Assembly (NCBI GenBank): GCA_001799195.1
Contig: MGSU01000279.1
Location: forward strand, 1 to 5,969
DNA: 5,969 nt
Direction of reading: 5' to 3'
DNA from: Deltaproteobacteria bacterium RIFOXYA12_FULL_61_11
GTDB lineage: Bacteria > Bdellovibrionota_F > JAHFAK01 > YA12-FULL-61-11
Position numbers and translations under genes: made by a program
Shown here: positions 1-5,967 of the stretch, in pieces
Numbering within the stretch: position 1 is the first letter of the stretch
Layout of the letters: every line of letters begins with the position of its first letter
The notes under the pieces: model-generated
Databases searched by the model: none
What the model was told of the DNA's origin: nothing
What the model saw: only the letters and a program-made list of their open reading frames with translations

Positions 1-734
1 CTGCCGCGGTTGCTCTTGGTCACGATGCGATCCTTATAGACGAGCGGGGGACCGTAGGACTGCTCGGTGCCGAAGCGGTGGGTCACGGTGCCCTTGGCGA
101 GGTTGATGCGGTTGACCATGCCGAAGGCGGTCAAGGCGATCAATTCGTTGCCGGCGATGCTCGGTGTACCTGAGAGCTGGTCGGACAGGTTGAGGGTCCA
201 ACGGTCGTTGTACGTTGTCAGATCGGTCAGGTGGATGGTGCCGTCGGTTTCGGCGAACACCACGGCTTTGCCGTAGGGCAGGGGGGAGGGGAGGCGGCCC
301 TTGAGGACCATGTTGATCGGACGTTCGTAAAGCAACCTACCGTCTTTGGCCGAGAAGACCAGGAGGCGGCGATCGGTGGCGAAGACCACTTTATCCTCGA
401 CCAAGGTCGCGCTGGAAGCCGTGTTGTCGGGTAGGTCCACGCGCCAGGCGACTTTACCGGCACGGAGATCGAAGCTCACGATGGCGTTGCGGGCTTCGGG
501 CGCGAAGCACTGGGTGCCGAAGTAGGCCCGGTCGCCCTCGACCACGATCGACGCCGTGATGCTGGTCGCGGGGAGCCGCACGTGGACGCGCAGCAAGGCT
601 TTGGGATTTTGGAGGGAGATCGGTACCACCCGCTGGCCCGAGGCCTCTCTGTGCTCGGCGCGCCAAGGCAGGGACTCGAGGCCAAGGACCGAGGTCCAGC
701 TTGCCAGGGCGAGGATCAGTACGAGACGCGACAT
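1..734 (-). CDS. Secreted PQQ-like beta-propeller repeat protein (N-terminal part, runs off left edge)
   Basis: Reading leftwards from an ATG at 734-732, an open frame of 244 codons continues without a stop to the window edge, so the C-terminus is missing. Residues 1-18 look like a Sec signal peptide: MSR, then a hydrophobic stretch (LVLILALA), with a plausible cleavage after VLG at 18. From about residue 55 on there are repeated beta-strand units of the PQQ-like propeller type, alternating 'VxxDxVxFxT/AxD' strands with 'xFDxxxGKxxWRV' strands. The clearest are FDLRAGKVAWRV (88-99), VFSAKDGRLLYE (126-137), a weaker unit around 168-183, and NLAKGTVTHRF (211-221), giving about four blades so far. 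The protein is therefore probably periplasmic or cell-surface, and either a scaffold of the BamB/YWTD-like kind or a quinoprotein-like enzyme. No PQQ-ligand residues can be assigned, so enzyme activity is not claimed. It is transcribed divergently from the radical SAM operon, and no functional link is shown. Confidence 0.82.
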   Translation of the reverse strand, partial: MSRLVLILALASWTSVLGLESLPWRAEHREASGQRVVPISLQNPKALLRVHVRLPATSITASIVVEGDRAYFGTQCFAPEARNAIVSFDLRAGKVAWRVDLPDNTASSATLVEDKVVFATDRRLLVFSAKDGRLLYERPINMVLKGRLPSPLPYGKAVVFAETDGTIHLTDLTTYNDRWTLNLSDQLSGTPSIAGNELIALTAFGMVNRINLAKGTVTHRFGTEQSYGPPLVYKDRIVTKSNRG

Positions 735-738
735 GGAA

Positions 739-744
739 CCCTCC
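739..744 (-). promoter_or_regulatory. Ribosome binding site of the propeller gene (GGAGGG)
   Basis: On the minus strand GGAGGG lies 4 bases before the ATG at 734. A second in-frame ATG at 746-744 overlaps this site and would add only MEGS. The good spacing of the purine-rich site favours the 734 start and leaves the signal peptide directly at the N-terminus. Confidence 0.6.
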
Positions 745-818
745 ATGCTTGACCGATTACCGTCCGGTTCCTACCACGGGGAGGGGAAAAAGACAATGCC
801 CGTTGGGAAGGTGTGCTC

Positions 819-882: not shown

Positions 883-2235
883 ATGCGCTTGTTGCTGCTC
901 CTGCCCGATGGGCGCATCCATTGTTTACGCTTCGCCCGCTGGGCTATTTCCTTCCGTGAGGCGCCGCTGACCCATACCCTGCTCGCGGCTTTGGTACCCG
1001 AGGAACTCGGCTTCGAGGTCGAAGTGGCCGACGAGAGCATCGGCCCGATCCCCCTCAACCGGCCTTTCGATCTGGTCGGGATCAGCGTCATCACCGGGGC
1101 GTCCGAAAGAGCCTACGAACTGGCCGACCATTATCGCTCTCGCGGCGCCACCGTGGTCCTCGGAGGCGTGCACGTCACCCTGCGGCCGGACGAGGCCGCG
1201 GCCCATGCCGACGCCATCGTCCTCGGTTTTGCCGAGCGGACGTGGCCTGCACTGCTGCGCGACTTTGCCACCGGGAGGATGGCTCCGCGCTACCAAGACG
1301 ATCAGCCCTTGCCCGCCAAGCTCCCCAAGCCCCGCCGCGAGCTGCAACGACGGCTCGGCTATATGGCTCCGACCGTCTTCTTCGCCACCCGAGGCTGTCG
1401 CAGCCGCTGCGATTTCTGCAGCGTGCCCGCCGCGGGGCAGACTTGGCAGACCCGCCCGGTAGGCGAGGTCATCGACGAGATCCGAGCCAGCGGCGCTCGG
1501 CGCATCGTCTTCAACGATGTACACCTCAACGAGGACCCCGAGTACGCCAAGGAGCTGCTCGAGGCCCTGGTTCCCCTGCGCATCACCTGGGGCGGGTTGG
1601 CCTCGACCCGGGTGGTCCGCGACGAGGAGTTGCTGGCGCTGCTCGGGCGCAGTGGATGCAATTACCTGTTGCTGGGCTTCGAATCCCTCTCGCAGGGGTC
1701 GTTGCAGGCCATCCAGAAGGGCGCCAACAAGGTCGAGGAATACCGGGAGGTGGTCCGGCTACTCCACCAGCAGGGAATCATTCTCCAGGGCTGTTTCATC
1801 TTCGGCATCGACGAGGACGAACCCGAGGTCTTCGAACGAACGGTCGCCTTTGTCGACGAGGTGCGCATCGACATCCCCCGTTATGCGATCTACACGCCCT
1901 ACCCGGGGACGGAGGCCTTCCACCGCCTCCTGACCGAGGGTCGGCTCCTGCACCAGCGTTGGCGTTACTACGACACCCAGCACGTGGTCTTCCGACCGGC
2001 CAGGATGACTCCCGAGCAGCTCGACCAGGGGTTCCTCTGGGCCTATCGCACGACGTTCACCCTGCGTTCCATCCTGCGCCGGACCCTTGGTTCGGGCGGC
2101 CGTTTCCCGATCACCTTCATGGGCAACCTGGCTTACCGGCTCTATGTCGGCAGGTTGGAACGCGAAGCCGAACGCATTCCCTCGGAGCTCGGTCTCGTAC
2201 CTGTTCCCGAGGACAACGTCGGCCTGAGTGCATGA
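883..2235 (+). CDS. B12-binding domain radical SAM protein A (450 aa)
   Basis: First gene of the operon. Residues 1-150 form a cobalamin-binding Rossmann-like region (DLVGIS at 63-68, LGGVHVT at 93-99, HADAIVLGFAE at 108-118) without the classical DxHxxG motif, as usual in class B radical SAM enzymes. The [4Fe-4S]/SAM site is C172-x3-C176-x2-C179 within RGCRSRCDFCS. Further core signatures are GCNYLLLGFES (258-268), FIFGIDEDEPEVF (305-317) and PYPGTEAF (339-346). The C-terminal tail (about 365-450) contains RPARMTPEQL and an arginine-rich helix, a tail seen in COG1032-type enzymes. It lacks SPASM cysteine clusters. Family members reductively cleave SAM and use cobalamin for methylation, cyclisation or rearrangement at unreactive carbons; the substrate here is unknown. 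Where B and C read FFVDDN, A has VFNDVH (209-214), so it belongs to a separate subfamily. Its TGA overlaps the ATG of B (ATGA). Confidence 0.93.
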   Translation: MRLLLLLPDGRIHCLRFARWAISFREAPLTHTLLAALVPEELGFEVEVADESIGPIPLNRPFDLVGISVITGASERAYELADHYRSRGATVVLGGVHVTLRPDEAAAHADAIVLGFAERTWPALLRDFATGRMAPRYQDDQPLPAKLPKPRRELQRRLGYMAPTVFFATRGCRSRCDFCSVPAAGQTWQTRPVGEVIDEIRASGARRIVFNDVHLNEDPEYAKELLEALVPLRITWGGLASTRVVRDEELLALLGRSGCNYLLLGFESLSQGSLQAIQKGANKVEEYREVVRLLHQQGIILQGCFIFGIDEDEPEVFERTVAFVDEVRIDIPRYAIYTPYPGTEAFHRLLTEGRLLHQRWRYYDTQHVVFRPARMTPEQLDQGFLWAYRTTFTLRSILRRTLGSGGRFPITFMGNLAYRLYVGRLEREAERIPSELGLVPVPEDNVGLSA

Positions 2236-3557
2236 AGGTCCTCCTCGTCCGCCCCAACTTGGCTCCCCGCCGCTCCAGTGATGCCCTGACTCCGTTGGCC
2301 TTCGCCCTCTTGACCGGGCAGACGCCTCCCGGTGTCGAACTGGTGGTCCAGGACGAGCGCCTTGCCCCGCTCACACCCGTCACCGATGCCGATCTGGTTG
2401 CGATCTCGGTAGAGACCTATACCGCGCGTCGGGCCTACCAACTCGCGGACCGTTATCGGGCTTCGGGTATCCCGGTGGTGCTCGGCGGACCCCACCCCAC
2501 GGTAGTCCCGGAAGAAGCGGCGGGCCATGCCGATGCCGTGGTCCGGGGCGATGCCGAGAAGCTCTGGCCGCAACTCCTCGCCCAGGCCGAGGCAGGAAAC
2601 CTCCAGCCGCTCTACGAAGCTCCGCCCGGCGGGACGATGGACGGGTTGCAGTACGACCGGAGGGTGTTCGACGGTTTGCGCTATGGTCCGATCGACCTGG
2701 TCCAGTATGGCCGCGGTTGCGGGCACGTGTGCGAATTCTGCTCCATCCACGCCTGGTACGGCAAGACCAAGGCGAGACGCCCGGTGGCCGAGGTCGTGGC
2801 CGAGCTAGCACTCCTGCCGCGGCGCCACCTCTTCTTCGTCGACGACAACCTCGCCCTCGATCCGCGCTGGCTCGCCGAGCTGTGCGATGGATTGATCCCT
2901 TTGCGACGCCGCTGGTCCTGCCAGCTCAGCCTCGATGCCCTCGAGGCTCCGGAGCTGGGAGCCACGCTCGCCTCGGCCGGTTGCAGCGTGGTTATCCTCG
3001 GCTTCGAATCGCTCCGACCCGAGAACCTGTGTCAGATGGGCAAGGCCTGGAACCGCAGTGGACGGAGCTATACCGAGCTCGTGGCCGAACTCGCCGGCCA
3101 CGGTATCATGGTCTACGGTACCTTCGTCTTCGGTTACGATCACGATAGGCCCGACTGCTTCGAGGCCACCGTGGACTTCGCCGTTTCCAGTGGGTTGTTC
3201 CTGGCCAACTTCAATCCGCTTACTCCCATGCCCGGCACCGCGCTGTATCGCCGGCTGGAAGCAGAACAACGTTTGCTCTCCCCGACCTGGTGGCTGGAAC
3301 CCGGATACCGCTATGGTCAGGCCGTCTTCCGGCCGGTCGGCCTGAGTCCCGATCAGCTCACCGAGGGGTGTTTCAGGGCGAGACGGCGCTTCAACAGCCT
3401 GAGTACCATGGCGCGCCGTGCGTTCGCCAACCGGGCCAATTACTCGTCGGTCCGACAGTTCGGTCTGTTCGCCCTTGCCAACCTGGTGTCGCGGCGGGAA
3501 ATCCTGCACAAACAGGGACTTGGATTGGGCGAGGCCGAGGAGACCTCATGCGCCTGA
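2232..3557 (+). CDS. B12-binding domain radical SAM protein B (441 aa)
   Basis: Second gene. The start is the ATG overlapping the TGA of A. The same frame stays open about 330 codons further upstream, but that stretch lies within A and would leave a nonsense Arg/Pro-rich extension, so it is rejected. MKVLLVRPN begins a cobalamin-binding region (DLVAISVET at 54-62, LGGPHPT at 84-90, HADAVVRGDAE at 99-109). The cluster motif is C163-x3-C167-x2-C170 in GRGCGHVCEFCS. Then follow FFVDDNLALDP (201-211), SCQLSLD (229-235), GCSVVILGFES (250-260), FVFGYDHD (298-305) and TPMPGTALY (331-339). The tail has LTEGCFRARRRFNS and a final basic segment. Length and domain order match A and C, and it resembles C most. 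Activity is expected to be cobalamin-dependent radical chemistry on an unidentified substrate. There is no convincing ribosome binding site before it, so translation probably depends on coupling to A. Confidence 0.93.
   Translation: MKVLLVRPNLAPRRSSDALTPLAFALLTGQTPPGVELVVQDERLAPLTPVTDADLVAISVETYTARRAYQLADRYRASGIPVVLGGPHPTVVPEEAAGHADAVVRGDAEKLWPQLLAQAEAGNLQPLYEAPPGGTMDGLQYDRRVFDGLRYGPIDLVQYGRGCGHVCEFCSIHAWYGKTKARRPVAEVVAELALLPRRHLFFVDDNLALDPRWLAELCDGLIPLRRRWSCQLSLDALEAPELGATLASAGCSVVILGFESLRPENLCQMGKAWNRSGRSYTELVAELAGHGIMVYGTFVFGYDHDRPDCFEATVDFAVSSGLFLANFNPLTPMPGTALYRRLEAEQRLLSPTWWLEPGYRYGQAVFRPVGLSPDQLTEGCFRARRRFNSLSTMARRAFANRANYSSVRQFGLFALANLVSRREILHKQGLGLGEAEETSCA
3537..3542 (+). promoter_or_regulatory. 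Ribosome binding site of gene C (GAGGAG)
   Basis: GAGGAG lies 5 bases before the ATG at 3548, inside the end of gene B. It fixes the start of C against a longer in-frame reading beginning at 3290. It is the strongest ribosome binding site in the operon, so C can probably be initiated independently as well as by coupling. Confidence 0.65.
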
Positions 3558-4879
3558 CCCTCATCAAGCCCAACATCGGGCGTTTGGAACACAGCCTCTA
3601 TGTCGACGAGGGGCGTATGCAGCCCTTGCAGCTCGGCGTCTTGGCCGGCTTGTGTCCGGAGGATGTCGAGGTGCGCCTGTATGACGACCGGGTCGAGCCC
3701 ATCCCCCTCGATGAACCCACGGACCTGGTCGCCATCACGGTGGAGACCTTCACCGCGCGGAGAGCGTACGAGCTCGCCGACGACTACCGGAGCCGGGGGG
3801 TGAAGGTAATCCTCGGGGGGATGCACCCGACCCTGTTGCCCGAGGAAGCCGCCGTTCATGCCGATGCCCTGTATCTCGGGGATGCGGAAGAGCGGTTTCA
3901 CGAAGTGCTGCGGGATGCGAGGAAGGGAACGTTGGCACCGCTCTACCGGGCCTTGCCGGGGCCACCCCAGACCGGCAGTGTCCCCAGACGCGCACTCTTT
4001 CATGGTAAGGGCTACCTGCCGATTGCCCTGGCCCAGTTCAGCAGGGGATGCAAATACACCTGCGAGTTCTGCGCCATCAGCACCTACTTCGGCGCGACCC
4101 ACTTCCGGCGGCAGGTCCGCGAGTTGATTGCCGAGCTGGAAGCAGTATCCGAGAAGTTGATCTTCTTCGTGGACGACAATATCGTCGCCGATCGAGAGGC
4201 TGCCAAGGTGTTGTGCCGCGAGCTGAAACCGCTCGGCAAACGTTGGGTCAGCCAGGCCAGCATCGACATGACCGAAGACCTGGAGTTGATGGAGTTGATG
4301 GTCGAGAGCGGTTGTCTCGGCCATGTCGTGGGTTTCGAGAGCCTGGAGCCCGCCAGCCTGCGTTCCATGCGGAAGATCCCCAACCTCCGGCAGTCGAAGG
4401 GCCGGTATGCCGAACAGCTCGCCGTGATCCGTTCCTTCGGCTTGCAACTCTGGGCTGCTTTCACCCTGGGGCATGACCACGATACCGTGGACACGGTGCG
4501 CCGTACCGTGGAGTTCGCCATAGAACAGAAGTTCTGCTTCGCCGCCTTCAACCTGCTGGTGCCGTATCCCCGTACGCCCCTCTACGAGAGGTTGCGACGA
4601 GAAGGTCGGCTGCTCTACGAGGGCTGTTGGTGGCTCCATCCGGAGTACCGTTTCAACCATGCTCCCTTCCGGCCTGCCAAGATGAGTGCCGACGAGCTGA
4701 CCGAGGCGTGCTTCGAGGCCCGCAAGCGCTTCAACGGCCTCGGCAGCATCCTCTACCGCTCCCTCGATCCGGCAACTACCCTGCGCTCTCCGTATCGCTT
4801 CGCCCTCTATTGGGCTTATAACCCCTTGTTTCGGCGTGAGACCTTCCGCAAGCAAGGCATGCGCCTCGGTTTGCGGTGA
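3548..4879 (+). CDS. B12-binding domain radical SAM protein C (443 aa)
   Basis: Third gene, overlapping the end of B by 10 bases. MRLTLIKPN opens the cobalamin-binding region: DLVAITVET at 59-67, LGGMHPT at 89-95, HADALYLGDAE at 104-114. The iron-sulfur motif is C168-x3-C172-x2-C175 in SRGCKYTCEFCA. Downstream are FFVDDNIVAD (206-215), SQASIDM (235-241), GCLGHVVGFES (255-265) and LGHDHDTVDTV (307-317). It aligns almost without gaps to B over the VETxTARRAYxLADxYR block and in the tail (LTEACFEARKRFNG against LTEGCFRARRRFNS), which indicates duplication. Two differences stand out. The usual YPGTPLY reads YPRTPLY (340-346), and the FVFGYDHD block begins FTLGHDHD. Function is inferred as for its paralogues: a cobalamin-dependent radical SAM enzyme with an unknown, possibly related substrate. 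Its TGA overlaps the GTG start of the next gene. Confidence 0.93.
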   Translation: MRLTLIKPNIGRLEHSLYVDEGRMQPLQLGVLAGLCPEDVEVRLYDDRVEPIPLDEPTDLVAITVETFTARRAYELADDYRSRGVKVILGGMHPTLLPEEAAVHADALYLGDAEERFHEVLRDARKGTLAPLYRALPGPPQTGSVPRRALFHGKGYLPIALAQFSRGCKYTCEFCAISTYFGATHFRRQVRELIAELEAVSEKLIFFVDDNIVADREAAKVLCRELKPLGKRWVSQASIDMTEDLELMELMVESGCLGHVVGFESLEPASLRSMRKIPNLRQSKGRYAEQLAVIRSFGLQLWAAFTLGHDHDTVDTVRRTVEFAIEQKFCFAAFNLLVPYPRTPLYERLRREGRLLYEGCWWLHPEYRFNHAPFRPAKMSADELTEACFEARKRFNGLGSILYRSLDPATTLRSPYRFALYWAYNPLFRRETFRKQGMRLGLR

Positions 4880-5967
4880 GTGCTCCCCTGCGGGTCGAGT
4901 TGGCCCGAGCCGAGGACGAGGGAGCCCTGCGCGGGCTATTGGCGGGTTCTCCCATGCCCGGTGCTTTCCGCGTCGCCTACGAACGCGAGCCGGACTTCTT
5001 CCTCTCGGCTAGGCTGCTCGGACCCCATTGCGACGTGTTGGTGCTGCGCGCGGGTACCGAGGTCGTCGGTCTGGCCACCCGTTCGGTGCGGTTGCACTAT
5101 GTAGGTGGGGTGCCTCGACCTGTGGGATACCTCTCGGCCCTGCGCATCGCCGAGCCCTACCGTCGCGGCACCGCCCTGGCAAGGGGATACGCTTTGTTGC
5201 GGGAGTTGCACGGCGATGGCCGGGCAGAACGGTATTTCAGCACCATCGTGTCGGCCAATACCGAGGCCAGGGCTCTCTTGACGAGCGGTCGCTGCGGCTT
5301 GCCGCGCTATGTGGAGCTGGGAGAATACACGACCTCGGTGTTGCCGGTACGTCGAAAACCGAAGAGGTATAAAGGTCCGGTCGAAGTCGTTCGAGGCGGT
5401 GGTCCGGGTTGGCCTGACCCTCTCTGCGGCTTCCTCGCGACCGAGTTGCCCCTTCACGACTTGACTCCCTGTTGGACCAAGGCCGAACTGGACGGCGGGG
5501 ACGGATTGCTGCCGAGGCCCGACGACTTCGTCCTGGCCTTCCGCCGGGGCGAGTTGGTGGGGACCGCCTCGTTGTGGGACCAGACAGCCTGCAAACAGTA
5601 CCGCTTGTGTGCGTACGGTGGGATCTTGGGGGTGCTGCGTCCCGGCCTCAACGTCTTGGCAGGAGCCCTTGGTTGGCCGAGCTTACCGCCCGAAGGTTCC
5701 TTGCTCTCCCAGGCCGTAGTAGGTCATGTTGCTGTTACGGGCGATGATCCCGATATCGCGGCAGCGTTGCTCTCTGCCCTGGAACGCTTGGCGGCAGAAC
5801 GCGGGCTTCGCTTCCTCCTGTTGGGACTGATGAGCCAGGATCCGCTCCTCTTGGCGCTCCGGAGGAAGCCGCGACTGACCTACCGCAGTACGGTCTACGA
5901 GGTTCTCTGGGAGGGGGAGGGGCGGCTGGCCGGGCGTACCGTACGTCCGGAGCTGGGTCTCTTGTGA
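4876..5967 (+). CDS. Double GNAT-type N-acyltransferase-like protein (363 aa)
   Basis: Fourth gene. It starts at a GTG that overlaps the stop of C (GTGA); no ribosome binding site is obvious, so coupling is likely. The N-terminal half (about 5-158) reads as a GNAT fold. VELARAEDEGALRGLL is the first strand and helix, DVLVLRAGTEVVGLATRSV (53-71) the central strands, and YLSALRIAEPYRRGTALARGY (85-105) the acetyl-CoA motif A with RRGTALARG as a variant R-x-x-G-x-A pyrophosphate loop. STIVSANTEARALL (122-135) is the usual Asn-containing motif B. The C-terminal half (about 168-346) repeats the same logic in degenerate form: FVLAFRRGELVGTASLWD, then GDDPDIAAALLSALERLAAERGLRFLLLGL and a final YRSTVYEVLW strand, without a clear CoA loop. 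GNAT enzymes transfer acyl groups from acyl-CoA, usually to amines. The operon context suggests acylation of the product or substrate of the radical SAM enzymes. The exact substrate is unknown; the protein lacks a signal peptide and should be cytoplasmic. Confidence 0.75.
   Translation: MSAPLRVELARAEDEGALRGLLAGSPMPGAFRVAYEREPDFFLSARLLGPHCDVLVLRAGTEVVGLATRSVRLHYVGGVPRPVGYLSALRIAEPYRRGTALARGYALLRELHGDGRAERYFSTIVSANTEARALLTSGRCGLPRYVELGEYTTSVLPVRRKPKRYKGPVEVVRGGGPGWPDPLCGFLATELPLHDLTPCWTKAELDGGDGLLPRPDDFVLAFRRGELVGTASLWDQTACKQYRLCAYGGILGVLRPGLNVLAGALGWPSLPPEGSLLSQAVVGHVAVTGDDPDIAAALLSALERLAAERGLRFLLLGLMSQDPLLLALRRKPRLTYRSTVYEVLWEGEGRLAGRTVRPELGLL

Follow-up and report, generated by a model that had tools for sequence, protein, structure and literature searches.

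A multi-phylum bacterial gene cluster of B12-binding radical SAM enzymes with an N-myristoyltransferase-like tandem GNAT: a candidate system for acyl-amide biosynthesis

What might a bacterium make with three consecutive B12-binding radical SAM (rSAM) enzymes and a double GNAT, and are these genes the whole of the apparatus? The question is raised by four plus-strand genes, here A to D, which span 883-5967 among the open reading frames of the window, by which is meant the whole 5,969-nucleotide stretch of DNA analysed (Table 1). Neighbours overlap by 4, 10 and 4 bases, an arrangement from which A-B-C-D is read as one translationally coupled operon. The initial annotation had proposed such an operon, and the genes do overlap head to tail. 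One correction is called for: the stop codon of D is 2 bases from the last base of the contig (C279, which is the window), so the gene set is truncated there and the window is the left part, the visible end, of a larger gene cluster. Upstream and divergent (3-746, minus strand) is an apparently unrelated gene for a BamB/PQQ-type beta-propeller. A 771-aa open reading frame at 1242-3557 was discarded because it is gene B prolonged upstream, where the frame stays open across A.

Table 1. Features of the window and the basis on which each was assigned
Feature	Position	Strand	Basis
rSAM A, B12-binding + radical SAM	883..2235	+	Pfam; tree: 'WA' subclade of orthogroup A
A CxxxCxxC, CRSRCDFC	1396..1419	+	Motif search
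rSAM B, orthogroup rSAM3	2232..3557	+	Pfam; tree; identity to relatives
B CxxxCxxC, CGHVCEFC	2718..2741	+	Motif search
rSAM C, orthogroup rSAM4	3548..4879	+	Pfam; tree; identity to relatives
C CxxxCxxC, CKYTCEFC	4049..4072	+	Motif search
D, tandem-GNAT acyltransferase, N-myristoyltransferase fold	4876..5967	+	Pfam; model; structure comparison
D C-terminal PELGLL, presumed catalytic C-terminus	5947..5964	+	Glu(-4) and terminal Leu conserved

That A, B and C each join a B12-binding to a radical SAM domain was rightly perceived at the outset (PF02310 and PF04055 are above gathering score in every one), as was the intactness of CxxxCxxC, a motif found in all three and kept by all their relatives (230 sequences). 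Are these proteins, with pairwise identities of 37-43%, simply copies of one another? A FastTree phylogeny of the 230 rSAM proteins splits into four orthogroups, an A clade, C2, B and C, with deep supports that are partly moderate (67 for the B+C node). B and C of the window are placed in the B and C groups respectively; B is 46-53% identical to the position-3 genes of the conserved clusters considered below, and C is 55-62% identical to position-4 genes versus 40-45% to rSAM2. A lies in a subclade with a support of 100, together with proteins of L035, L049, L053, L061, L063, L071, L072 and L075, loci whose source genomes are KSB1, Lentisphaerae, Verrucomicrobia and Bdellovibrio-like. Because they fall in separate orthogroups, the three are old and non-redundant paralogues, not recent duplicates.

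None of the three reaches an NCBIfam equivalog cut-off, and with scores so far beneath them they belong to no family with a known substrate, which agrees with the initial expectation that they would be found outside families with known, unrelated substrates. HpnJ (TIGR03471), which gives the top score, and BchE (TIGR02026) have the same architecture and provide best or near-best matches of A, B and C, and one could envisage a polycyclic or isoprenoid lipid as the target of rSAM ring chemistry, comparable to that of HpnJ on hopanoids and BchE on porphyrins. However, the scores for A, B and C are 105, 53 and 81 bits against a cut-off of 577.6 for HpnJ, and 94, 57 and 53 bits against 481 for BchE; neither a hopanoid nor a bacteriochlorophyll context accompanies the genes, no terpene cyclase or porphyrin gene was seen to recur in the cluster, and ring chemistry of this kind is considered quite improbable. 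The B12-rSAM P-methyltransferases PhpK/Sden_1168 (TIGR04479, NF038361) include the second-best match of C, PhpK, but the PhpK scores of A, B and C are 57, 50 and 77 bits where 600 are needed, and no phosphinate or phosphonate genes were seen. Similarly, the lipid-linked B12-rSAM family associated with ladderanes (TIGR04072) is matched weakly, at 38-64 bits against a cut-off of 360, and no ladderane gene set was seen. None of the three proteins has HpnP, BchQ/BchR or GrsA/GrsB among its NCBIfam matches, though NCBIfam may not model each of them.

Do the genes travel together elsewhere? With B as query, a scan of 84,980 species genomes found 77 loci, onto which reference genes were mapped by tblastn. 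B was the sole criterion by which loci were selected, so co-occurrence of the other genes was not built in. D, a GH3-type gene (F1) and a second GNAT (F2) nonetheless accompany the rSAM genes in 55 of the 77 (individually, C2 occurs in 69, D in 67, F2 in 59 and F1 in 58), and 223 of 389 same-strand neighbour pairs are no more than 50 bases apart. These 55 loci represent at least 15 phyla: with Bacteroidota set aside, 14 that are named by NCBI plus loci of unnamed phyla, e.g. KSB1. The single Bacteroidota locus is not counted as a phylum because its contig (L039, Chryseobacterium sp. 18061) is probably a contamination of the public genome; it differs by 1 base in 17,302 from that of Citrobacter sp. 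18056 (L038). An apparent further family, 'F7', is taken to be an antisense-ORF artefact, tblastn putting cluster genes on the opposite strand there.

The commonest gene order is F2-F1-A1-C2-D-B-C, present in Budvicia, Leminorella, Limnobaculum, Morganella, Citrobacter, Rhodocyclales and Sulfuricurvum. In other lineages A-C2-D-F2-F1 stays together as a block, with B-C preceding it or separate, and the core is alone in anaerobic gut lineages, e.g. Lachnospiraceae (L034) and Clostridiales (L073). In the reverse direction, 386 genomes were scanned with a D profile. Of the 13 matches, the three strongest non-self ones (E <= 1e-70) are all inside the cluster, and most of the weaker D-like proteins, with E from 1e-51 to 1e-17, are outside it. 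As a side observation, L134 (G329, 8681-11634) has a tandem GNAT that is distantly like D but lacks the conserved C-terminus; after it come two genes that by eye are of diacylglycerol/sphingoid-kinase type, a hint of a lipid context there.

How then does the A-B-C-GNAT neighbourhood, first put forward as a four-gene unit, fare? Its co-occurrence holds in those 55 loci and in many phyla; the order A-B-C-D is a local variant, and the normal system is larger, with a fourth rSAM orthogroup, GH3, a second GNAT and lipid-type enzymes. It could be countered that unrelated rSAM genes were duplicated in tandem by chance and that no dedicated pathway exists, for there are 48 B12-binding matches in the window's genome, where rSAM genes are clustered elsewhere too. 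But A, B and C fall in three orthogroups, and in many phyla these are kept together with D, F1 and F2; this synteny contradicts it, and such an origin is hardly credible. Almost certainly this is a dedicated, conserved biosynthetic system, and the description of it as a 'candidate unassigned biosynthetic system' is sustained by the multi-phylum synteny and by the failure of any NCBIfam cut-off to be attained. That four B12-rSAM orthogroups are fixed together across phyla points to several hard-to-form C-C bonds in the product.

The partners are informative. In relatives of the window, F1 is a GH3-type amide synthetase (PF03321 at 7.5e-33, PF23571 at 3.1e-8) with a profile match of 1e-36 to plant acyl-acid amido synthetases, AtGH3.15, and it keeps the adenylation motifs (ATP and GD). 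While in these respects it resembles GH3 enzymes such as AtGH3.15 and JAR1, it differs from them in its setting, a multi-rSAM cluster of bacteria. F2, a single GNAT, has a weak Pfam match, a model of pLDDT 97.1 and a best Z of 12.9, to NatD. Many loci add F3 (a fatty acid desaturase), F4 (SnoaL-like) and F5 (a PAP2 phosphatase), all three named from Pfam, and also F6, with desaturase and SnoaL-like genes recurring in several phyla. F6 is conserved, is about 220 aa long, occurs in 17 clusters (in Sulfuricurvum, L016, at 10632-11294) and is apparently a membrane protein; it has no Pfam match and no PDB sequence match, and no solved structure was convincingly matched by sequence to either F2 or F6. 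Among 63 extra cluster neighbours scanned, Rieske oxygenases account for 5 and AurF-like proteins for 3, and there are also a P450, an ICMT-like methyltransferase and SPASM rSAMs. The cluster core has no carrier protein or dedicated source of fatty acyl groups, which weighs against the acyl-amide reading set out below.

The 'double GNAT' of the initial annotation is confirmed in that D exceeds the PF00583 cut-off and its confident model (pLDDT 94.5, pTM 0.92) covers two GNAT folds. Compared with solved structures by VIA-align, the best 50 are all N-myristoyltransferase (NMT), with Z of 22.4-23.8 and 294-306 residues aligned, and in nearly all of these 50 alignments the last residue of D aligns on the last residue of NMT. 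Foldseek on the same model has NMT tied with other tandem GNATs, so the NMT assignment depends on VIA-align. Among D homologues all 43 sequences end at the same alignment column, the terminal residue being Leu in 41, Met in 1 and Ala in 1, with Glu at -4 in 42. In NMT the carboxylate of the last residue is the catalytic base (PMC7048800), a feature termed unique in the GNAT superfamily in a 2016 review (PMC4964394). A fixed terminus is what a catalytic C-terminus would require, and that of D therefore suggests, rather than proves, NMT-like catalysis by the C-terminal carboxylate. Eis acetyltransferases have also been proposed to use a C-terminal carboxylate as base. Set against the shared whole-length fold and fixed C-terminal end, NMT is eukaryotic and D is bacterial, identity in the structural alignments is 8-14%, the profile match to NMT1 is weak (E 0.03) and no Pfam NMT domain is found in D at E <= 0.001, PF00583 being the only one; lacking sequence membership, D is not classed in the NMT family. 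If the reading holds, D would extend NMT-like acylation with a catalytic C-terminus to bacteria.

Need the acceptor be small? With the NMT fold of D, and RiPP precursors being the substrates of many B12-rSAMs, one may imagine a peptide or protein that D acylates as NMT does and that the B12-rSAMs C-methylate or crosslink. But the window's genes and those of L016 abut or overlap; the latter locus has 11 abutting genes with gaps of at most 6 bases and so no room for a precursor peptide. Besides, HpnJ and BchE, rather than any RiPP family, head the rSAM matches, and the substrates of GH3 enzymes are small acids and amines. Modification of a peptide or protein is improbable.

From the gene content, orthogroups, synteny, folds, cofactor and adenylation motifs and the terminus of D, all of which are demonstrated, we infer every reaction, the reaction order and the product. 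The proposal, to which we would give an even chance, is that the cluster makes a fatty acyl amide that is modified by the B12 enzymes at unactivated carbons. D would take a fatty acyl group off a thioester, of CoA or of a carrier protein, and pass it to an amine, with its own C-terminal carboxylate as base; F1 would adenylate a carboxylate and couple it to a second amine; and F2 would perform a further acyl transfer, the acyl-amide backbone thus being assembled without NRPS or PKS. A, C2, B and C might then each attend to a different unactivated carbon of the scaffold, by C-methylation, cyclisation or C-C coupling, while the desaturase, PAP2, SnoaL-like protein and F6 would complete or transport the product, to which some lineages may add Rieske, AurF-like or P450 steps. 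A fatty product is favoured because of the fold of D, the desaturase and the PAP2 phosphatase. Could the same dedicated system instead yield a small non-lipid amide, short in its acyl part and serving as antibiotic or signal, with desaturase and PAP2 as accessories? Its sporadic distribution, plasmid carriage and varied oxygenases resemble those of secondary metabolism, and core-only clusters exist that have neither desaturase nor PAP2; on account of that distribution and those oxygenases a small amide deserves a hearing. Yet the fold of D is like that of a long-chain acyltransferase, several phyla share the desaturase and SnoaL-like genes, and this outcome is judged unlikely.

The single enzymes are of known superfamilies. 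Searches of the open-licence literature, the wider ones judged by title and abstract, yielded no description of this gene combination (an account elsewhere is possible) and, to our knowledge, the combination corresponds to no known system. That the cluster carries no NRPS or PKS to flag it may explain why it seems undescribed. More tentatively, at somewhat under an even chance, an NMT-like acyltransferase, a GH3, a GNAT and four B12-rSAMs would between them produce, with neither NRPS nor PKS, a new class of lipid or acyl-amide in bacteria.

Where is the rest of the system in the window's own genome, a 4.64 Mb assembly of 342 contigs that is 87% complete? Among its other contigs, an orthologue of C2 is at C82:9137-10522, 53% identical to the Sulfuricurvum gene. 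Directly downstream (C82, L118, 8401-9195) is what by eye is a class I SAM methyltransferase, not seen next to C2 in conserved clusters. F2 starts 52 bases into contig C16. In many relatives it comes directly after D, whose end here is 2 bases short of the end of its contig, and for this reason C279 and C16 are probably adjacent through a D-F2 junction. Their GC contents are 64.5% and 58.7% respectively, and the gene next to F2 on C16 encodes a FabD-like protein on the opposite strand. GH3 (F1) has no match in this assembly, which counts against the acyl-amide proposal; either the gene is in the missing part of the genome, or another has replaced it, or this organism lacks it. On C16 (L117, 771-16296) some 10 kb of DNA contains four more divergent B12-radical-SAM genes, with neighbours that appear by eye to be an RND transporter, a TolC-like protein and two FabD-like acyltransferases.

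The cluster occurs in tractable bacteria, Enterobacterales included, e.g. Citrobacter and Morganella. At Morganella morganii Mm1 (L060, 10330-11185) all of C and most of B and of F3 are missing, F3 surviving in fragments; this copy has apparently decayed. The cluster is horizontally spread. The B-C genes of Citrobacter have no match in E. coli complete genomes, and a complete cluster, its genes annotated with general family names only, resides on a 159 kb mobilizable plasmid of Citrobacter portucalensis (NZ_CP134684.1), where it shares 83% identity with the C. youngae ATCC 29220 copy across 12.2 kb.
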